From positions 1,387,001 through 1,451,000 of the forward strand of contig NZ_CP060495.1 in assembly GCF_014334095.1 (NCBI RefSeq): 64,000 nucleotides of DNA, written 5' to 3'. Position 1 is the first letter of the stretch; each line of letters opens with the position of its first letter. Both the position numbers and the translations under genes were made by a program. The notes under the pieces are model-generated. The model was not told the origin of the DNA. It worked only from the letters and a program-made list of their open reading frames with translations, and ran no database searches. Source of the DNA: Novosphingopyxis iocasae (GTDB taxonomy: Bacteria; Pseudomonadota; Alphaproteobacteria; Sphingomonadales; Sphingomonadaceae). This document shows positions 29,690 through 63,439 of the stretch, piece after piece.

Positions 29690-31102
29690 TCAGAACTCGG
29701 ACCAGTCGTCGTCGGCCAGGGCCGTGTTACCGGCGACCCGGGCCGTTACGGCCGGCTGGGCCATCTGACGGGCCGCACGCGCCTGCAACTGGTGCACAGG
29801 AGATGCGGCAGGGCTGCGCTGAGCAGAGCCAGAAACCCGGAACTGCGAAACCTGACGGGCAAGCACATCTGCCTCTTCGGCCAGGCTGCGGGCAGCTGCC
29901 GTCGCTTCTTCCACCATGGCTGCGTTCTGCTGCGTCACGCCGTCCATTTCGGACACGGCGGTGTTCACCTGCTGCAAACCATTGGCCTGCTGTTCTGCGG
30001 AGGTCGAGATCGAGGAGACGAGGGTGCTGACCTCCTTGATCCGGTTGATGATACGTTCCAGCGATGCACCGGTCTCGCTAACCAGTTGCACGCCTGCATC
30101 CACCTGCCCCGTGGACGCCGTGATCTTCGACTTCACATCCTTGGCTGCATCCGCAGAGCGCTGCGCCAAGGCCCGAACCTCGGATGCGACCACGGCAAAG
30201 CCCTTGCCCGCATCGCCGGCACGCGCCGCTTCAACGCCGGCGTTCAATGCGAGCAGGTTGGTTTGGAAGGCGATACCGTCGATTACCGAAATGATCTCGC
30301 TGATTTCCGCGGAAGAGCGCTCGATCCCGTTCATGGCCTCTACGGCGCGCTGCACGACGTCGCCGGACTGTTCGGCCTCCGAGCGCGTTTCGATAACCAC
30401 CTGATTGGCCCGGGTGGCATCCTGCGCCGCCTCGCGGACCGTGGAAGTGATCTGATCCATGGCGGCGGCCGTCTCCTCCAGGCTGGCGGCCTGCTGTTCG
30501 GTGCGCTGGGACAGATCGTCCGATGCCTGACGGATATCGGCGGAACCGTTGTTGATGCTGCTGGCAGCGTCGATGACCGCGGATATGACTTCGGTAAGCG
30601 ACTGCAGCGCCTCGTTGTAATAGTTCCGCAGCTGATCATAGCCTTCAGGAAACGGCGTTTCGATGCGGTAAGTCAGGTCGCTGTCGGACAGCTTGCGCAG
30701 ACCGTCGCTGAGAGCGTCGACAACCTGCTCCTGAGCCTCATTGGATGTCTGAATCTTTTCGCCATTCAGACGGAAGACATTCATCGCCCGAGTCATGCGA
30801 CCGACGCAGTCCTGATGCTCTTGATGAGCGATCGGACTTGAGAGATCACCGGCGGCAAGGGATTCCATGCGTTCCACGGTCTCGACGTAAGGATCGCAGA
30901 TCGCTTTTTTGGATACTAAGACCACGATCGCTTGCGCAATGACTGCAAGAAACGCGATGCCCAGCATCACTTCTCCTGAGATCCAGCCGAATTCGATGCC
31001 GAATGCGGTTGCCGCGACGAAAGCCGTAATCGCGGTATGCACCCAGAATAGTGCGTTGAATTTTGTCCGGATGGGTGCTGTTTCTTTAAACCAGCGCAGC
31101 AT
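29690..31102 (-). CDS. Methyl-accepting chemotaxis protein without periplasmic sensor (1)
   Basis: A 470-residue receptor. Two membrane helices (about 17-38 and 45-65) are joined by only a few residues, so there is no periplasmic ligand domain. A HAMP-like region (about 68-120) and a second HAMP-like part (about 135-180) lead to the signalling domain, with the hairpin tip GIAFQTNLLALNAGVEAARAG. The C terminus ends DDWSEF, an xWxxF-type pentapeptide like the NWETF CheR tether. It may sense cytoplasmic or membrane-energy cues. It is about 40 bases upstream of the STAS gene, and nearly identical in its signalling domain to its upstream neighbour. Confidence 0.93.
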   Translation of the reverse strand: MLRWFKETAPIRTKFNALFWVHTAITAFVAATAFGIEFGWISGEVMLGIAFLAVIAQAIVVLVSKKAICDPYVETVERMESLAAGDLSSPIAHQEHQDCVGRMTRAMNVFRLNGEKIQTSNEAQEQVVDALSDGLRKLSDSDLTYRIETPFPEGYDQLRNYYNEALQSLTEVISAVIDAASSINNGSADIRQASDDLSQRTEQQAASLEETAAAMDQITSTVREAAQDATRANQVVIETRSEAEQSGDVVQRAVEAMNGIERSSAEISEIISVIDGIAFQTNLLALNAGVEAARAGDAGKGFAVVASEVRALAQRSADAAKDVKSKITASTGQVDAGVQLVSETGASLERIINRIKEVSTLVSSISTSAEQQANGLQQVNTAVSEMDGVTQQNAAMVEEATAAARSLAEEADVLARQVSQFRVSGSAQRSPAASPVHQLQARAARQMAQPAVTARVAGNTALADDDWSEF

Positions 31103-31357: not shown

Positions 31358-32764
31358 TTAGAATTCGGACCAGTCGTCCTGCGCCAAAGCAGTGTTCCCG
31401 ACGACACGCGCCGTCAGCGCCGGCTTTGCCATCTGGCGGGCGGCCCGATCCTGAAGCGCATGCACCGGAGACGGCGCGCTGCGTTCTGGCTTCGTTTCGA
31501 TCTGGAACCCTGCAACCTGGCGGGCAAGCGAGTCCGCTTCCTCTGCCAGACTTCTGGCCGCTGCGGTGGCTTGCTCGACCATGGCGGCGTTCTGCTGCGT
31601 CACGCCGTCCATTTCAGAAACGGCGGTATTGACCTGCTGAAGGCCGTTGGCTTGCTGCTCAGCCGATGTCGAGATCGAAGAAACCAGATCGCTGACCTCC
31701 TTGATCCGGCCGATAATCCGCTCAAGCGAGGCACCCGTCTCGCTGACAAGCGCCACTCCGGAATCGACCTGCTCGGTGGAAGCGGTGATTTTCGATTTCA
31801 CATCCTTCGCAGCGTCTGCCGAGCGCTGCGCCAAGGCGCGCACTTCGGATGCCACCACGGCAAAGCCCTTGCCCGCGTCGCCAGCGCGTGCTGCCTCAAC
31901 CCCTGCGTTCAGAGCCAGTAGGTTGGTCTGAAAGGCAATCCCGTCGATCACCGAAATGATGTCGTTGATTTCGGCGGAGGCGCGTTCAATTCCGTTCATC
32001 GCTTCGACCGCACGATGCACGATATGGCCCGATTCTTCGGCTTCGGTCCATGTGGCACCCACCACCTCATTGGCGCGTTTGGCGTCTTGAGCGGATTCGC
32101 GTACGGTCGAGGTGATCTGATCCATCGCCGCGGCGGTTTCCTCAAGGCTCGCAGCCTGTTGCTCCGTGCGCTGCGAAAGATCGTCCGAAGCGTGCCGGAT
32201 ATCAGCGGCGCCATTATTGATGTTGGCGGCCGATCCAACCACGGCCGAGATGACTTCGGACATCGAAATCAAAGCCTGATTGAAGTTGGTGCGCAGTTCT
32301 TCATAAACGCCAGGGAACGCGTCTTCGATGCGGTAGCTGAGGTTGCCGTCGGCCAGCTTGTGCAAACCGTCGCTGAGCACGCTGACAACCTGCTCAATCT
32401 CGGTAGCGTCTTGTACTTTCTCGGCATTGGCGCGGAAGACGTCCATGGCCTGGGTCAAGCGTCCCACACAGTCGGCATGCTGCGTGTGCAAGACCGGACT
32501 GGCGAGATCACCGTCGGCAAGCCCCTCCATACGCACGACCGTCTCCACAAACGGATCGCAGATCAGTTTCTTCGCGACCAGGACCACGGCGATATGAGCG
32601 ATCAAACTTCCGATCGCGACGCCGAACGCAGCAACCGGCGAAATCCAGGCCTGCATGGAAGCGAAAACAGCACCGGCGACTATCGCAGCCAAGACGCCGT
32701 GGATACAAAGAAGGACAGTAAACTTCCTCCTGATCGGCGCTTTTTCTTTAAACCAGCTTATCAT
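31358..32764 (-). CDS. Methyl-accepting chemotaxis protein without periplasmic sensor (2)
   Basis: A 468-residue receptor and tandem paralogue of the next gene downstream. It has the same layout: two closely spaced membrane helices near residues 15-65, HAMP-like linkers, and a signalling domain with GIAFQTNLLALNAGVEAARAG. It also ends DDWSEF. The two proteins differ mostly in the membrane and HAMP regions while their signalling domains are almost identical, which suggests duplication and possibly different inputs. The start at 32764 follows GGGGGAA; a codon four residues earlier is less likely. Confidence 0.93.
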   Translation of the reverse strand: MISWFKEKAPIRRKFTVLLCIHGVLAAIVAGAVFASMQAWISPVAAFGVAIGSLIAHIAVVLVAKKLICDPFVETVVRMEGLADGDLASPVLHTQHADCVGRLTQAMDVFRANAEKVQDATEIEQVVSVLSDGLHKLADGNLSYRIEDAFPGVYEELRTNFNQALISMSEVISAVVGSAANINNGAADIRHASDDLSQRTEQQAASLEETAAAMDQITSTVRESAQDAKRANEVVGATWTEAEESGHIVHRAVEAMNGIERASAEINDIISVIDGIAFQTNLLALNAGVEAARAGDAGKGFAVVASEVRALAQRSADAAKDVKSKITASTEQVDSGVALVSETGASLERIIGRIKEVSDLVSSISTSAEQQANGLQQVNTAVSEMDGVTQQNAAMVEQATAAARSLAEEADSLARQVAGFQIETKPERSAPSPVHALQDRAARQMAKPALTARVVGNTALAQDDWSEF

Positions 32765-32887
32765 CAATTCCCCCACTCAACTCTCGGCAATGGCTAGAAT
32801 TTCTTGCAAAGCCAATGCACGGAACTGGAGTACTGGATAGGACAAGGTGGTAAATAGCAGGTAAACGACGAAGTAATTCCTGAAGGA

Positions 32888-33811
32888 TTACTTTGAGCGT
32901 ATGCTGGAAGACGAAAGCCCTTCGGCGACTTCTTCACTAATCGCACGCCCGCTGCTGGCCTGGGTCAAGAGCGTAATCGACATGCGCCGGTTGCGCGGGT
33001 CCGCTGCGTCGCCTGCGTTGTAGGGCTGCCGGTCCGACACACCCTCGATCTTGTCGAAACGGTCCTCCTTCAGTCCGCCGGAAAGCAGGCCCTGCCGGGT
33101 TGCTTCGGCACGTGCCGCGGAGAGTAGCCAATTGTTCATTGTCTTGCCCGATGCATAAGGCAGACTGTCCGTATGGCCGCGCACGGCGATGGCGTTCGGT
33201 AGGTCACGGATCGCGCCCGCCACTTCTTGCAATAGCTTGGCAGCGCGGGGAACCAGCCGATTGCTCGAAAGCTGGAACATGGCAAAGTCCGCGGCATCGA
33301 CAACCTCGATCCGTAGCCCCTCCGTCGTCCGGATGAACTTGATGTTTTCGGACAGGTTGCGCAGCTCTGCCTTTTCCTGGAGCCGCTTGCGGATTTCCTT
33401 CTCGATCGCGTCGAAGCGTTTCTGCTCCTCCTTGCGCAAGGCAAGGTCCGCGCCGTCGCGGCTTCCGGTGGCATCCTTGGGGATGGTCAACGTGCGGGTT
33501 CCGGTCTGGCCCGGCGCATGGGGATAATCATCGCGCGAAACGACGGATTCGCCGCCGAACAAACCATTGGAGCCGGCGCTGCCCTGTTTCATTTCCACCA
33601 GCGTGGGTGCGAAGTAGTCCGCGATGGCCTTGCGCTGGTCCTCATCCGTCGCGCCAAGCAGCCACATCAGCAGGAAGAACGCCATCATCGCCGTCACGAA
33701 GTCGGCATAGGCCACCTTCCACGCGCCGCCATGATGGCCGCCATGGCCATCCTCGATGATTTTCTTGATGATGATGGGGCGCAGATTGTCCCCTTTGGGA
33801 GCGCTAGCCAT
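32888..33811 (-). CDS. motB: Flagellar motor stator protein MotB
   Basis: A 307-residue stator subunit. The N-terminal helix AYADFVTAMMAFFLLMWLL carries the proton-accepting Asp37. A plug/linker and coiled region follow, then the OmpA-like peptidoglycan-binding domain with VRGHTDSLPYA and NWLLSAARAEATRQ and NRRMSITLL. It works with MotA to convert proton flow into torque. It lies directly after motA. Confidence 0.95.
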   Translation of the reverse strand: MASAPKGDNLRPIIIKKIIEDGHGGHHGGAWKVAYADFVTAMMAFFLLMWLLGATDEDQRKAIADYFAPTLVEMKQGSAGSNGLFGGESVVSRDDYPHAPGQTGTRTLTIPKDATGSRDGADLALRKEEQKRFDAIEKEIRKRLQEKAELRNLSENIKFIRTTEGLRIEVVDAADFAMFQLSSNRLVPRAAKLLQEVAGAIRDLPNAIAVRGHTDSLPYASGKTMNNWLLSAARAEATRQGLLSGGLKEDRFDKIEGVSDRQPYNAGDAADPRNRRMSITLLTQASSGRAISEEVAEGLSSSSIRSK

Positions 33812-33815
33812 GGCC

Positions 33816-34679
33816 TCAGCGCGCCCTCAGGCCGTCGAACACATCGGCGAAGCTGGGCTGGTTGGCGTGGTTCAGGCCCGAACGTGCGGCCTCGATCACC
33901 AGCGGCTGCGGATGGCCGTGCAAGGTGGCAACGATGATCTGCTTGGCGGTCTCGTAGATTTTGTGATCTTCCTCGATGATCGCTTTCACCCGGTTCGCGA
34001 TCGGGCCGACGATGCCGTAAGCCAGAAGCACGCCGAGAAAGGTGCCGACCAGCGCCGAGCCGATCATCTCGCCCAGAACTTCCGGCGGCTGATCGATCGC
34101 ACCCATCGTCTTCACGACGCCGAGCACGGCGGCAACGATGCCGAGCGCGGGCAACGCGTCGGCCAGCCACTGCAGATTGTTCGCAGGGCCCATCGCTTCA
34201 TGATGATGCGATTTCAGATGCTGATCGACCACATCCTCGACCGAATGAGGATCGAGGTCGCCCGAAGACACCACCACGAGGCGCAGGCTATCGCAAATCA
34301 GCGCCACCAATGTCTTGTCCGCAAGCAAACGCGGGAACTCAGCAAAAACTGCGCTATTCTGGGGATCTTCGACATGCGGCTCCAGGGCCACCGGCCCTTC
34401 GGAACGCATCATCTTCGTCAGCTTTCCGCACAGGAAGATGCAATCCAGATAATCCTGCCGCTTGTATTTCGGCCCCTTGAAGACCTTGGCGAAGCCGCCG
34501 CCGAGCGCTTTCAGGTCCGGCCCGCTATTGCCGATCACGATTGCGGCCACCGCCGCCCCGCCGATCACCATCATTTCGATGGGGAGCGCATGAAGCACGG
34601 CGCCGATATCACCACCGGAAATGATGAACCCTCCGAACACCATAACCAGAAGAATGACGAGACCGATTGCAACCATCAT
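33816..34679 (-). CDS. motA: Flagellar motor stator protein MotA
   Basis: A 287-residue proton-channel subunit with four membrane helices (two near the N terminus; two near 175-200 and 205-225). The conserved segment PALGIVAAVLGVVKTMGAID and GTFLGVLLAYGIVGPIA are present. The cytoplasmic loop carries charged residues for contact with FliG. Two consecutive ATGs begin the protein. It starts the motA-motB-receptor-che array. Confidence 0.95.
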   Translation of the reverse strand: MMVAIGLVILLVMVFGGFIISGGDIGAVLHALPIEMMVIGGAAVAAIVIGNSGPDLKALGGGFAKVFKGPKYKRQDYLDCIFLCGKLTKMMRSEGPVALEPHVEDPQNSAVFAEFPRLLADKTLVALICDSLRLVVVSSGDLDPHSVEDVVDQHLKSHHHEAMGPANNLQWLADALPALGIVAAVLGVVKTMGAIDQPPEVLGEMIGSALVGTFLGVLLAYGIVGPIANRVKAIIEEDHKIYETAKQIIVATLHGHPQPLVIEAARSGLNHANQPSFADVFDGLRAR

Positions 34680-42678: not shown

Positions 42679-43029
42679 TTATTCTCCTCGGATCGCGCGG
42701 GTGAGCGTGTTCACGCGCGCCTCTAGGAAAGAGAGCGTGGTCGAATAGCCGACCGCGTTCTCGGCGAAGAGCGTCTGTTCGGTGGAAAGCTCGACCGTGT
42801 TGCCGTCGAGCGAGGTCTGCAGCGGGACGCGGTAGCCGGCATTGCCTTCCATCGCCTGCGTGGCATCCGATCCGCTTTTGCGGACCTGGCTCATCGCCTT
42901 CTCGAAATCGAGGTCGCGGGCCTTGTAGCCGGGCGTGGCGGCGTTCGCGATATTGGAAGCCAGCATCGACAGCCGCTGCGATCGCAGCTGAAGCGCGTCC
43001 CCGTGAATGCCGAAAATTTTGTCTGCCAT
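42679..43029 (-). CDS. flgB: Proximal rod protein FlgB
   Basis: A 116-residue rod subunit with MLASNIANAATPGYKARDLDF near the N terminus and SFLEARVNTLTRAIRGE at the C terminus. It is the first gene of the large flgBCDEFGHIJKL operon, three bases before flgC. A sigma54-type promoter lies 76-92 bases upstream of the start. Confidence 0.95.
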   Translation of the reverse strand: MADKIFGIHGDALQLRSQRLSMLASNIANAATPGYKARDLDFEKAMSQVRKSGSDATQAMEGNAGYRVPLQTSLDGNTVELSTEQTLFAENAVGYSTTLSFLEARVNTLTRAIRGE

Positions 43030-43104: not shown

Positions 43105-43121
43105 AAGCAAAGGGCGTGCCA
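43105..43121 (-). promoter_or_regulatory. Sigma54 promoter for the flgB operon
   Basis: On the minus strand the sequence TGGCACGCCCTTTGCTT matches the -24/-12 consensus TGGCAC-N5-TTGC perfectly, with the GG and GC exactly ten bases apart. The predicted transcription start is near 43095, 66 bases before the flgB ATG. Confidence 0.85.
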
Positions 43122-43161: not shown

Positions 43162-43176
43162 TGGGGGGGCCATTGC
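43162..43176 (+). promoter_or_regulatory. Weaker sigma54-like promoter for the stator-like pair
   Basis: TGGGGGGGCCATTGC has TGG and TTGC with exact -24/-12 spacing but lacks the CAC of the consensus. It would start transcription near 43188, 50 bases before the gene. It faces away from the flgB promoter. Confidence 0.45.
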
Positions 43177-43178
43177 CA

Positions 43179-43220
43179 TCCGGGCGGCAGCATTTTGCCG
43201 CCCGGCAAGTTTTTGCCGGG
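43179..43220. promoter_or_regulatory. Tandem palindromes, candidate FlbD (ftr-like) enhancer sites
   Basis: Two perfect inverted repeats sit side by side: CCGGGCGGCA with TGCCGCCCGG, and CCCGGCAA with TTGCCGGG at 43201-43220, sharing their border. GGCAA/TTGCC cores with GC flanks resemble the Caulobacter ftr sites bound by FlbD, as I recall them. The position, about 85-125 bases upstream of the flgB transcription start, suits a sigma54 enhancer. Alternatively they are RNA hairpins in the leader of the divergent gene. Confidence 0.55.
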
Positions 43221-43237
43221 TGAGTGAGGACCGCAAT

Positions 43238-43951
43238 ATGATGTCGATCCAATGGGCCCGCTTCCTGGATCCGGGCGCGCTTCTGCTGGTCGGCCTCGGC
43301 TGCCTGCTGGTCGCGCTGGTGCAGAACGGCATTCGCGGCATCATGATTGGTTTTGCGACATCGCTATCGCTTCACCGAACCGCGGACGCGGGCGAACAGG
43401 CGCGGCTTTCCAGCGTTATCGTGGAAGACATCGTCCGCCGCCGCGGGGTGAGCTGCGCCGACAGGCCGGCTTTGGCCTGCGCCTATACCGCCAAGCTCGC
43501 CAGTGAGATGTCCGATGCGCCGGACTTCGCGGCGTTCGCCCATATCGTCACGCAGGACAGCGCCACGCGCAACGCGGCGCGCGCGGTCGCGGTTCAGATG
43601 TGGGAGGATATCGCCGATGCGGCGCCCGCGCTCGGCATGCTCGGCACCGTCATCGGCCTGGTCGAGATGTTCGGGCGCATGGAGAGCGTCGAGGGCCTTG
43701 GCACTGCGATGGCACTATGCCTGCTTACCAGCCTGTACGGCCTTGCCTTTGCGCATCTGATCGCCGGACCGATCGCGCGCCGCCTCCAAATGCTGGGCGG
43801 GCGCGAGGCGGCCTGGCAGACCGAAATCAGCGATCGCATGCTTGCGCTGGCCCGCGCCGAATATCCCGATCGCGCGCCGCGGCGGCCTGTGGTGCCAATC
43901 CTGGGCGATCCGCCCGATACGCTCCAGCCAAAGGAAGCGGCCACTCCATGA
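43238..43951 (+). CDS. MotA/TolQ/ExbB-like proton-channel family protein
   Basis: A 237-residue membrane protein of the MotA/TolQ/ExbB superfamily. The first helix is GALLLVGLGCLLVALVQNGI. Two later helices carry DAAPALGMLGTVIGLVEMF and TAMALCLLTSLYGLAFAHLIAGPIA, the signature of the superfamily's ion-channel helices. It differs from the canonical MotA at 34 kb. Two ATGs (43238 and 43241) follow TGAGGA. The next gene overlaps by ATGA and encodes a MotB-like partner, so they form a second stator-like pair located at the flagellar promoter region. Its function is not known to me. Confidence 0.8.
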   Translation: MMSIQWARFLDPGALLLVGLGCLLVALVQNGIRGIMIGFATSLSLHRTADAGEQARLSSVIVEDIVRRRGVSCADRPALACAYTAKLASEMSDAPDFAAFAHIVTQDSATRNAARAVAVQMWEDIADAAPALGMLGTVIGLVEMFGRMESVEGLGTAMALCLLTSLYGLAFAHLIAGPIARRLQMLGGREAAWQTEISDRMLALARAEYPDRAPRRPVVPILGDPPDTLQPKEAATP

Positions 43952-44391
43952 CATCGAAACGCTCCATGGTCGGATTTATTGACCTGTCGCTGATCCTGCT
44001 CGGTTCCGTCGCGCTGATCGGCGAACTGCACCAGCGCGAACTCGTCGACCATCCTCTGGTGAGCAGGCGCGAGGATATGGAACGCGGCAACAGCGTGACC
44101 GTCGCTATCGGCCGCCTGTTCGAACCGGGCGAGGCACGCCTTTCGGTACAGGGCGACAGCTGGGTGCGGAACATGGCGCGCACCGCCGGCGGGCAGCGCG
44201 TTTCCGTTCGGGTTGCAATCGACGATCGTCACGGCAATGCACGTCTCGACGGCTGGGAACAGGCCGCCGCGCGGACCGCCGCGATCATGTACGCGCTCGA
44301 ACGCGGCGGCGTACCGTCCGATCATATTGATCCGACCGTCCCGCCTCATGCTGGCGGTGCAGAAGGAATCACCGTCACGATTAGCGGCTGA
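43948..44391 (+). CDS. Small MotB/ExbD-like partner with OmpA-like tail
   Basis: A 147-residue protein, about half the length of MotB. One N-terminal helix (VGFIDLSLILLGSVALIGEL) bears an aspartate at residue 12 in the position expected for a proton-carrying residue. A short linker leads to an OmpA-like C terminus (EPGEARLSVQGDSWVRNMA, then AARTAAIMYALERGGVPSDHI). It lacks the standard peptidoglycan-binding NX2LSX2R-type motif. The ATG overlaps the stop of its MotA-like partner. I infer a proton-driven stator or energiser complex with an unknown target. Confidence 0.75.
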   Translation: MTSKRSMVGFIDLSLILLGSVALIGELHQRELVDHPLVSRREDMERGNSVTVAIGRLFEPGEARLSVQGDSWVRNMARTAGGQRVSVRVAIDDRHGNARLDGWEQAAARTAAIMYALERGGVPSDHIDPTVPPHAGGAEGITVTISG

Positions 44392-44396
44392 AATTT

Positions 44397-44413
44397 TGGC
44401 ATGCCCCTTGCTT
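44397..44413 (+). promoter_or_regulatory. Sigma54 promoter for flgA
   Basis: TGGCATGCCCCTTGCTT matches TGGCA[C/T]-N5-TTGC with exact spacing. The predicted start is near 44423, 32 bases before the flgA ATG. Confidence 0.75.
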
Positions 44414-44454: not shown

Positions 44455-44979
44455 ATGCGCCCTGCCCTTCTTCCGACCGCAATCGCCGCCGCCGCTGCAA
44501 TAGCCATTGCACCGGCCGCAGCCGCCGGCTTCCAGAATCTGACCGATCTCGACGTGGCGGTGGCCGCCCATATGGGCGCCGAAATTGGTGAGCCGGGCGG
44601 TGCACGCGCGCCGGTCGACCGCCGTCTGAAGCTGAAAGCCTGCCCGGAGGCACCTGCCGTATCCGGCCCCGTACTCGGCGCCGCGATCGTCCGCTGCGAG
44701 CCTGTCGGCTGGTCGATCCGGGTACCGCTGAAGCTCGACGCAGCGACGCGCAGCTCCGCAGCATCGCCTGCCGTAAGGGTGAAGGAAGAAGACGCCGTCA
44801 GCCGCGGCCAGGCCGTCCGGCTCACCGTAGAGGGCGCCGGCTTCGCTATTTCCCGCACCATGATAGCAGACAAGAACGGCAAGATCGGCGACATGATCTC
44901 GGTCCGCGCGGACCGGATGGCCAAGCCCATTCTGGCGCGTGTCGTCGATATCGGCGAGGTGTCGGTTCCGGGCAGCTGA
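44455..44979 (+). CDS. flgA: Flagellar basal-body P-ring formation chaperone FlgA
   Basis: A 174-residue periplasmic chaperone for FlgI. A cleavable signal (ALLPTAIAAAAAIAIAPAAAAG) is followed by a short N-terminal part and the C-terminal SAF/FlgA domain with VSRGQAVRLTVEGAGFAIS and GDMISVRA...KPILARVVDIGEVSV. It is shorter than the E. coli protein and lacks much of its N-terminal region. It is separated from flgM by a promoter region. Confidence 0.85.
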   Translation: MRPALLPTAIAAAAAIAIAPAAAAGFQNLTDLDVAVAAHMGAEIGEPGGARAPVDRRLKLKACPEAPAVSGPVLGAAIVRCEPVGWSIRVPLKLDAATRSSAASPAVRVKEEDAVSRGQAVRLTVEGAGFAISRTMIADKNGKIGDMISVRADRMAKPILARVVDIGEVSVPGS

Positions 44980-52741: not shown

Positions 52742-53049
52742 GATAAATTCCTTTACGTTGTTCCCAGACCGGTCTGTTTGTTCGCCGGTTCGAAATGGGT
52801 AACGGTCAGGTTCCGGGGCCATTAAACAAAAAAATCGACCGGCCCCGCGCCGCCAATTTTCCGGCTTTATATATAGGGCGCCAAATTTTTGACGTTTCCG
52901 CCGGGCGGCTGACGGCCCGCTGACGCAAATCCCCCTCCCCCTTTGTTCACCCCACGCAAATCCGCGCTTTTCGCGTTTGGCACGCCGCTTGCATTATCGT
53001 TTGCGTGGGAATGCGGTGGGTAGGCCGCGAAAGATTGGGGAATACAAGA
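52742..53049. other. 308-base divergent regulatory region between flagellin 3 and flbD
   Basis: This gap holds no gene. It contains a sigma54 element for flbD at its right end (52978-52994), an AT-rich TTTATATATA tract (about 52865-52875) and a GC-rich CCGCCGGGCGGC stretch. I could not find a convincing sigma28 or sigma54 element for the flagellin on the left. Confidence 0.6.
52978..52994 (+). promoter_or_regulatory. Sigma54 promoter for flbD and the fliE operon
   Basis: TGGCACGCCGCTTGCAT matches TGGCAC-N5-TTGCA perfectly. The predicted start is near 53004, giving a 46-base leader. Autoregulation by FlbD is likely but unproven. Confidence 0.85.
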
Positions 53050-54360
53050 ATGTTCGTTTCGAAGACCGCCATCAGCGACGGTGCCGCCAGCAAGCTGCCG
53101 ACGCTTTCGACATATCTGAATGCCGTTCTGATCGAGACCGTTGCGATCGATACGAAAGACGGTTCACCGCGCACGCGCCCCATCCGCATCCTGACCGGGG
53201 ACGAGATGGCGCTTGCCTGTCACCGTGACATCATCGTCGATTTCCGCGACGGCGCGCCCGAGCTGGTGCCCGCCGCGAATGGCCAGCCGATGCACATCGC
53301 CTTCGGCCCAGCAGATATGAAGCTGGGCCACGCGCTTATCGCGGAAGCCGTCCGCAATGGCGGCCCTGCCATCGGTGAGCATGCGAGCGCCCGCCTGATG
53401 CGCTATGCCGCGCGCGTTGCCGCCAGCGGAGCCGCCGTCCTGATCCAGGGCGATACCGGCGTCGGCAAGGAAGGCATGGCCCGTTTCGTCCACTCGCAGT
53501 CGCCGCGCGCGGAAGGTCCGTTCATCGCAGTGAACTGCGCAGCGCTGCCCGCGACCATGGTCGAGGCGATGCTCTTCGGCCACAAGCGCGGCGCGTTCAC
53601 TGGCGCCAGCGGCGAAAGCGAGGGCCTGTTCCGTGCAGCCGACGGCGGCACGCTGTTCCTTGACGAGATTACCGAACTTCCTCTCGAACTGCAGGCGAAG
53701 CTGCTGCGCGCGCTGCAGGAAGGCGAAGTGCTTCCCGTGGGTGAGACAACCGCGGTCAAGGTCGATATCCGCATCGTCGCCGCCGCCAACCGCAATTTCC
53801 AAGCGGAGGTGGCCGAGGGCCGCTTCCGCGAAGACCTTTACTGGCGTCTCAACGTCATGCCGATCGAGATCGCCCCGCTCGCCGAGCGCCGCCAGGACGT
53901 GTGCGCCATCGCCGCGACCATGCTGCTCGCCATGCAGAAGGATGGCGCGGACTTCGCCTGGATCGAGGCCGATGCGCTTGAGGCGCTGATGGCGCACGCC
54001 TTCCCCGGCAATGTCCGCGAACTTTGCAACATGCTGCAGCGCGCCCTCGTCCTGCGCGAAGGCGATGCGATCTGCGCCGCCGATCTCAATCTTACCCCCG
54101 CCCCCGTCTTCACCCCCGCAGCCGCTACCATCAAGGCTGCGCCCACCACCCCCCGCGCCGACCCCACCCCGGCGATCAACCCCGTGCTGCGCGGCCGCGA
54201 CCTTCAGAGCCGCGCCCGCCTGGCCGAATTCGAAGCCATCACCGCTACCCTGGAAGAAACCAGCGGCAACCGCCGCCGCGCCGCGGAACTGCTCGGCATC
54301 TCCGAGCGCACGCTGCGCTATCGTCTCGCCGATATGCGCGAGCTGGCTGAAGCCGCCTGA
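53050..54360 (+). CDS. flbD: Sigma54-dependent flagellar activator FlbD-like
   Basis: A 436-residue NtrC-family activator. The first 95 residues do not look like a normal receiver. The AAA+ domain has GDTGVGKE (Walker A, about 134-141), the sigma54-contacting GAFTGA (about 181-186), and GGTLFLDEI. A Fis-type helix-turn-helix follows near 400-430 (NRRRAAELLGISERTLRYRL). Family members activate middle flagellar genes. The ATG at 53050 lies 46 bases after the predicted sigma54 start; the upstream in-frame GTG would sit at that start. The next gene, fliE, begins 14 bases later. Confidence 0.93.
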   Translation: MFVSKTAISDGAASKLPTLSTYLNAVLIETVAIDTKDGSPRTRPIRILTGDEMALACHRDIIVDFRDGAPELVPAANGQPMHIAFGPADMKLGHALIAEAVRNGGPAIGEHASARLMRYAARVAASGAAVLIQGDTGVGKEGMARFVHSQSPRAEGPFIAVNCAALPATMVEAMLFGHKRGAFTGASGESEGLFRAADGGTLFLDEITELPLELQAKLLRALQEGEVLPVGETTAVKVDIRIVAAANRNFQAEVAEGRFREDLYWRLNVMPIEIAPLAERRQDVCAIAATMLLAMQKDGADFAWIEADALEALMAHAFPGNVRELCNMLQRALVLREGDAICAADLNLTPAPVFTPAAATIKAAPTTPRADPTPAINPVLRGRDLQSRARLAEFEAITATLEETSGNRRRAAELLGISERTLRYRLADMRELAEAA

Positions 54361-59469: not shown

Positions 59470-59897
59470 AGAAGATTCTGAAAAGCCGCCAACGCATTCT
59501 TGGGATGCGTGAGACGCAGCTACGCATCGCCAAGGGGGAAAGCGCCGCCGCGCGCGGTAGCGAGACCAATCTGGAGCAGCGCCGCGATCAGCTAAAGGCG
59601 CTCTCCGTCCACATGCACAAGGCCGGCAATGACTGCCGCGAGGGCCGCTCGCTCCATGCGCAGCTCGAGCTGGTCGAACGCCTGCAGCGCGCCGGGGACC
59701 AGATGGAAACCGCAATCGGCCAGGCCCGGCAACATACTGCCCGGATGGAGCGGCAACGGATTGCCGCTTATCAAAAGCGCGAGATGGCCGACCGTCTCGT
59801 TGGGCGGGCGAAAACCAGTGTGGAAGCCGAGACCGACCGTAAGCTCAGCGAACAACCCCGCGCTTTGCCGCGCCGCGTTATGGAGCGCAGTGCGTGA
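59466..59897 (+). CDS. fliJ: Flagellar export chaperone FliJ
   Basis: A 143-residue, highly charged coiled-coil protein (RDQLKALSVHMHKAGNDCRE and LVERLQRAGDQMETAIGQARQ) at the usual FliJ position after fliI. Sequence identity to FliJ is low, as is normal for the family. It is the ATPase/export partner of FliI. The ATG overlaps the fliI stop by four bases. Confidence 0.8.
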   Translation: MKKILKSRQRILGMRETQLRIAKGESAAARGSETNLEQRRDQLKALSVHMHKAGNDCREGRSLHAQLELVERLQRAGDQMETAIGQARQHTARMERQRIAAYQKREMADRLVGRAKTSVEAETDRKLSEQPRALPRRVMERSA

Positions 59898-59950: not shown

Positions 59951-59967
59951 TGGCACGCTATCTGCAT
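59951..59967 (+). promoter_or_regulatory. Sigma54 promoter at the 5' end of fliK
   Basis: TGGCACGCTATCTGCAT fits TGGCAC-N5-[T]TGCA with one mismatch (C for T). The predicted start, near 59977, is only two bases before the ATG at 59979, so transcripts from here would be leaderless or use a later start. Confidence 0.65.
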
Positions 59968-63066: not shown

Positions 63067-63439
63067 CATGACAGAGGCAGCCGGCCTCGCCGATGCAGCC
63101 CGGCAGGGCGGCGGCAACGGGGCGGCAATTTCTTGCCGCGACGGTAACCATAGTTTTGCCGACGAAAGCGCGGAGCACTACCGCTTCCTTGCGGACATTC
63201 CGGTCCGACTCTCGGTGGAAGTCGGTGCGGTATCTTTAAAGCTCTGTGAAATCATGGACTTGGCCGAAGGATCGGTCGTCGAACTGGGTCGCCAGGCGAA
63301 CGAACTTCTCGATATCAACGTAAATGGCACGCTGGTTGCAAAGGGTGAGGTCGTAACCATCGACGGCCGTTTCGGCATCCGCGTCGCGGAAGTCGTTTCC
63401 AAGAATGTCGGAGGTGCGAAAGTTGAAAGGCGTGCCTAG
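63059..63439 (+). CDS. fliN: Flagellar motor switch protein FliN
   Basis: A 126-residue C-ring protein. The SPOA domain (about 40-118) carries IPVRLSVEVGAVSLKLCEIMDLAEGSVVELGRQ with the usual terminal GRFGIRVAEV. It forms the bottom of the C ring with FliM. It overlaps fliM and its TAG stop touches the fliO GTG. Confidence 0.95.
   Translation: MNDMTEAAGLADAARQGGGNGAAISCRDGNHSFADESAEHYRFLADIPVRLSVEVGAVSLKLCEIMDLAEGSVVELGRQANELLDINVNGTLVAKGEVVTIDGRFGIRVAEVVSKNVGGAKVERRA

Follow-up and report, generated by a model that had tools for sequence, protein, structure and literature searches.

Flagellar stators have been described as a uniform group, in which a four-helix A subunit is joined to a plugged, wall-anchored B subunit, and they are recognized by a square four-helix fold, a torque interface, a plug plus linker, and an OmpA-like domain (PMC12505986). 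Dual-stator bacteria carry an extra, full-size stator-type pair beside MotAB, such as MotCD or a second PomAB set, with shown roles in motility (PMC9039648, PMC11633141). ExbBD and TolQR combine a three-helix A subunit with a short B subunit bearing one Asp helix.

Here we describe two overlapping genes between flgB and flgA of Novosphingopyxis iocasae, found in the window (the whole 64-kb stretch of DNA analyzed; Table 1), which none of the papers listed by our literature searches describes. The pair resembles PomAB and TGI4-type stators (Vibrio; PDB 8BRD, 8ZYV) in its A fold, ion-path residues, flagellar locus, and B subunit, which joins a single Asp helix to an OmpA-like domain. In contrast to PomAB, its A subunit lacks TM1 and has Arg at the PomA Glu97 place, its B subunit lacks the plug and long linker, and it sits beside a complete motAB. 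Like MotCD, it is an additional stator-type pair, but one of reduced size and predicted role. We consider it about an even chance that the pair is a stator-derived (PomA-type), ion-driven accessory motor unit of the sphingomonad flagellum, which would act on the rotor beside MotAB.

Table 1 Coordinates of the gene pair, its control region, and related genes in the window
Feature	Position	Strand	Remarks
Canonical motB	32888..33811	-	
Canonical motA	33816..34679	-	Main stator; MotA1 equivalog over cut-off
flgB	42679..43029	-	Divergent neighbour
Sigma54 -24/-12 element	43106..43121	-	TGGCACGCCCTTTGCT, no mismatch; faces flgB
Palindrome CGGCA-N6-TGCCG	43185..43200		FlbD-like site (predicted)
Second palindrome CGGCA-N6-TGCCG	43203..43218		18 bp on; predicted site
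A subunit, 237 aa	ATG 43238..stop 43951	+	PomA-like three-helix channel protein without TM1; Pfam MotA_ExbB
B subunit, 147 aa	ATG 43948..stop 44391	+	MotB-like; single helix carrying Asp12, then a short linker and a small OmpA-like domain
Asp12 codon GAC	43981..43983	+	Presumed ion-binding residue; invariant in 45 relatives
Sigma54 -24/-12 element	44397..44412	+	One mismatch; faces flgA
flgA	44455..44979	+	Downstream neighbour
Sigma54 activator	53005..54360	+	Candidate FlbD-like regulator of the palindromes

Family and topology of the two subunits

The initial annotation had described a 237-residue MotA/TolQ/ExbB-type protein overlapping a 147-residue partner by ATGA, divergent from flgB and with a complete motA-motB elsewhere. 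Open reading frames and Pfam (MotA_ExbB, 60 bits, 2.3e-16) bear this out, the ATGA at 43948-43951 being common to the A-gene stop and the B-gene start; only its beginning at 43162 was set too early, taking in some 75 bp of non-coding sequence. We rejected the possibility that TM1 is restored by an overlooked upstream start: the sole further in-frame start is a GTG at 43220, no hydrophobic helix is encoded upstream of 43238, and relatives begin at about the same place.

The top NCBIfam model for the A subunit is PomA (alignment from PomA residue 25, 83 bits against an equivalog cut-off of 341), and PomA also heads its PDB sequence matches. Its AlphaFold2 model (mean pLDDT 91) matches PomA 8BRD with a Foldseek TM of 0.75 and superposes on PomA residues 21-229 (VIA Z 19.4, rmsd 2.8, 208 residues), well above ExbB (Z 12.9) and TolQ (Z about 11.7) in the same comparison, so the fold is that of PomA without TM1. 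This extra N-terminal helix is absent from the window's A subunit and from its relatives, leaving no four-helix square; the TM3 motif lies ~128-143 residues in among relatives with the trimmed start, versus ~150-152 in canonical ones. In the predicted model TM3 is a single unbroken helix (97-146), and the cytoplasmic part has the length of PomA's, superposes well, and consists of long merged helices with few separate short ones. Beyond these families, PHROGs gave a single weak match of unannotated function, and PADLOC found no match to Zorya models (ZorAB) up to E 0.1; the long cytoplasmic tail of ZorAB is absent from this 237-aa subunit.

Four MotA_ExbB loci are present in the genome: tolQ, exbB, motA, and the A gene of the pair. 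The tolQ gene (TolQ, 255 bits, over cut-off) is followed by tolR and a TolA-like gene, and a tonB-exbB-exbD-exbD cluster, named by reading the sequence, lies at another locus; the A protein of this cluster scores under the cut-offs of both TolQ and ExbB. The A subunit falls far below the cut-offs of both TolQ (12.3 bits, cut-off 221) and ExbB2 (16.5 bits, cut-off 135). By the profile check that the annotation had proposed for an ordinary TolQ/TolR or ExbB/ExbD pair, the two genes are thus distinct from Tol and Exb. The genome's own MotAB shares superfamily and flagellar cluster with the pair; it lies far from it in the tree and differs in having a 287-aa MotA with a MotA_N domain and four helices and a 307-aa MotB with a plug. 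Adjoining motB are two similar tandem genes (29690-31102 and 31358-32776) that appear chemoreceptor-like (methyl-accepting) on reading their translations.

Asp12 of the B subunit sits in its sole hydrophobic helix, as predicted from the letters, and the model shows one long helix followed by an OmpA-like domain. The small OmpA-like tail was also recognized correctly: taken singly the window's B subunit scores OmpA at 14 bits, under the Pfam cut-off, but the first alignment of B relatives matched OmpA in 9/9 (MotB_plug in 6/9), and the domain predicted for residues 45-147 can be superposed on H. pylori MotB with Z 12.7 and rmsd 2.4 over 103 residues. Arg99 and the Ala-Ala-Arg of the domain are invariant in 45 sequences and Asp101 is kept in 42/45; wall binding by the window's clade is a prediction from this domain. 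A PDB search with the window's B sequence by itself gave chance matches only, whereas the B family profile retrieved MotB and PomB structures (8.4e-10). Profile comparison gives MotB at 98.6% and ExbD/TolR at 0.8% over 14 columns. The partner had been placed near ExbD in size with an OmpA-like end; size and end stand, and by its profile the B subunit is MotB-type, its ExbD likeness being one of size only.

The Asp and the OmpA domain are 40-53 residues apart in B subunits of the pair (~47 in the window; 98 in Zymomonas), compared with 76-157 in canonical MotBs (n=8), a spacing that leaves no room for a plug plus a long linker. With TM1 missing from A and the plug and long linker from B, the unit is compact and probably lacks conventional gating. 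The pair has a MotA_ExbB domain with the PomA/MotA fold, an unbroken TM3, and an OmpA-like domain, and it lacks the square four-helix fold and the plug with long linker; we therefore do not class it simply as a stator (PMC12505986). The annotation was right that it is no textbook second stator. We think it improbable that the pair serves as a second stator in its own right, merely shortened and used with a different fuel or load like MotCD (Pseudomonas) or PomAB (Shewanella): a PomA-type A beside a MotA1-type main stator and the kept ion-path residues would suit this, but TM1, plug, and linker are missing, the anchor is eroded in one clade, and divergence is fast.

Ion path and candidate modes of action

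The A-subunit positions equal to PomA Thr158, Thr185, and Thr186 are retained in at least 44/48 sequences, as are the two conserved prolines; four sequences, the window's included, have Ser instead of Thr at the Thr186 position. These threonines match Na+-driven PomA, and similar ones occur in ExbB and TolQ. Residue conservation supports the ion drive proposed by the annotation, in which the choice of protons was an assumption.

The PomA charges that we take to be important for the rotor are Arg88, Lys89, Glu96, Glu97, and Glu99. Across the A subunits the Glu96 place is always acidic and the Glu97 place always Arg, while the places of the basic rotor residues Arg88 and Lys89 and of Glu99 vary; the surface towards the cytoplasm is thus conserved but different.

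We propose that the pair is an ion-driven rotary unit of PomA-type flagellar-stator descent, reduced in sphingomonads, and that it probably works like a flagellar stator. The assembly would be A5B2, two B subunits within a ring of five A subunits. Ions would pass between TM3/TM4 of A (Pro130, Thr137, Thr164, Ser165) and Asp12 of B, and their passage would turn the A ring, which would act on the rotor beside MotAB, presumably through FliG, as an auxiliary stator or modulator.

We place action on the rotor first, since the A subunit retains a cytoplasmic part like that of PomA with invariant residues in it, and an energizer of another flagellar step is the main rival. We judge the latter somewhat unlikely; it would make the pair an Exb/Tol-like unit of stator parts, in which ion flow powers basal-body assembly or an envelope step and the rotor is not turned. 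Such a unit might serve the P-ring, the rod, or the opening of the wall, perhaps together with FlgA or the lytic transglycosylase encoded nearby. A three-helix ring with a short axle as in Exb/Tol would suit such a unit, and so would its neighbours, which are the early assembly genes flgB and flgA, with flgM, flgN, and a lytic transglycosylase gene further along. The B subunit, however, carries an OmpA-like rather than an ExbD/TolR-type domain, no tonB, tolA, tolB, or pal lies beside the pair, and no TonB/TolA-like third gene was seen at the locus; the unbroken TM3 of the model and a cytoplasmic part as long as PomA's also speak against it.

Distribution, flagellar linkage, and selection

The genomes nearest to the window are sphingomonads. 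Searching the contigs of named genomes with the single A-subunit sequence gave no match, and an A-subunit profile was needed to recover the family, which comprises 47 sphingomonad loci in Sphingorhabdus, Novosphingopyxis, Blastomonas, Sphingobium, Parasphingorhabdus, Rhizorhabdus, Sphingosinicella, Sphingomonas, and Zymomonas. In the neighbourhood check suggested at the outset, 47/47 loci lie between flgB and flgA, or adjoin one of them where the contig ends. Outside the sphingomonads, complete matches have canonical length, and a full-size MotB often lies alongside. In other members of the order and in two of the family (L014-L034, L055-L057, L169, L170) a canonical-length PomA-type gene lies in a different flagellar cluster, some kb from flhA.

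We then sampled 120 genomes of the window's family, with FlgI as the marker of flagellated genomes. Strong profile matches occur in 57/120, two of which (G077 and G081), at first taken for carriers outside the flagellar locus, in fact carry a PomA of canonical length within a flagellar cluster of another kind. The remaining 55 carry the pair, all 5.0-6.6 kb from flgI in the flagellar cluster, which supports the flagellar link proposed earlier. The pair was found in 0/39 genomes without FlgI and is absent from 26 genomes with it (Fisher p 2e-14, genomes counted as independent). Included among the 55 is one genome (G020; L069:11542-12327) in which the B gene is missing and a degenerate A gene immediately precedes flgA, probably a loss in progress. 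A pseudogene reading for G108 and G120 was rejected, as the flagged stops did not interrupt the gene.

Reading frames and gene overlap are preserved across the family. Over seven close genome pairs, A has a dN/dS of 0.07-0.22 and B of 0.06-0.43, compared with 0.00-0.09 for flgC; by these estimates the pair is under purifying selection and is less constrained than flgC. Values well below 1, with nearly invariant ion-path residues, indicate that the pair is functional. Against its nearest relative the window's pair has 57% and 53% identity, versus 91% for MotA. It is highly improbable that the pair is the remnant of a second stator, in decay and with little remaining function: its fast divergence, the flagellated genomes lacking it, the B tail eroded in one clade, and the lone degenerate A gene might be read in this way, but frames, overlap, ion path, and the dN/dS of A are not those of a relic.

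A distant clade has kept both its A subunit and the DLxxILF helix that bears the Asp, and Pfam detects no OmpA domain in its B subunits (L058-L064, L171, L173), whose OmpA-like C-terminus is eroded and recognized by no Pfam model. The two kinds of B subunit are still linked by profile comparison (E 6e-5, probability 65%). In a tree built by a quick method, the clade of the pair (25 rows) has an SH-aLRT of 96 and the distant clade (7 rows) one of 99, and each is set apart from canonical PomA/MotA; they have in common their place, gene order, and missing TM1. Given the eroded domain, a function that needs wall anchoring by it cannot be general in the family. Erosion of the anchor with the ion path kept would suit the Exb/Tol-like unit. 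A further reading, rather unlikely in our estimate, is that a stator-descended motor has shifted back towards an Exb/Tol-like architecture, with a ring of three-helix subunits and a short axle that has no plug. Such a motor would power some flagellar process besides rotation or, in the clade without the OmpA tail, turn the rotor unanchored to the wall.

For the accessory motor we count PomA as best match in sequence and fold, the MotB profile of B, the kept Asp12 and ion path, the PomA-length cytoplasmic part, the linkage (55/55, with 0/39 lacking FlgI), and low dN/dS. Against it stand the missing TM1 and plug/linker, both stator-defining (PMC12505986), the anchor eroded in one clade, the non-conserved Arg88/Lys89 places, divergence much faster than that of MotA, the 26 flagellated genomes without the pair, and the lack of a sigma54 promoter facing it. 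By keeping the ion path while dropping TM1, plug, linker, and, in one clade, the wall anchor, the pair offers a natural test of what torque generation needs; widespread in sphingomonads, it may be a flagellar energizer put to a new use. The pair occupies the same location in Zymomonas mobilis, a genetically tractable species in which it can be tested. In strain ZM4, motB1/motA1 are ZMO0602/0603 and flgB is ZMO0614, in a table that leaves out the genes after flgB (PMC9797736).

Control region

The annotation had the pair share a sigma54/FlbD-like control region with flgB. This may hold for the palindromes, both of which lie between the flgB-facing sigma54 element and the pair, but the sigma54 promoter faces flgB only. 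No sigma54 element facing the pair was found in this region, so its promoter is probably of another kind. Membership of the pair in the flgB sigma54 unit was rejected, as that element points to flgB and flgA has its own.

The gapped palindrome pattern has 8 matches in the window against 1.1 expected, a number reached by 0/100 shuffles. At least one palindrome stands upstream of the A gene at 47/48 loci and two at 40/48, spaced 18-22 bp and ending 5-80 bp before the gene. In sequence they resemble sites of an FlbD-type activator, judged against the ftr sequence that we take to be the FlbD site. That they serve the pair alone was rejected: they are present upstream of flgB in 3/6 genomes without an intact pair (L069-L071), and so more likely serve flgB.

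In Caulobacter, FlbD represses class II and activates class III flagellar genes (PMC3096577). The pair's promoter may likewise be shut by the same FlbD-type protein. With palindromes close before its start and without its own sigma54 promoter, the pair would match an early gene that is switched off at a later stage, like the class II genes under FlbD (PMC3096577), a layout that favours the Exb/Tol-like assembly unit.

The sigma54 activator of Table 1 matches the FlbD model from residue 102 on, its N-terminal part having no match to the FlbD receiver region. More CGGCA-N-TGCCG palindromes occur at 59624-59638, 59751-59766, and 63123-63138, near sigma54 elements at 59951 and 63325, and are probably further sites of the same flagellar regulator.
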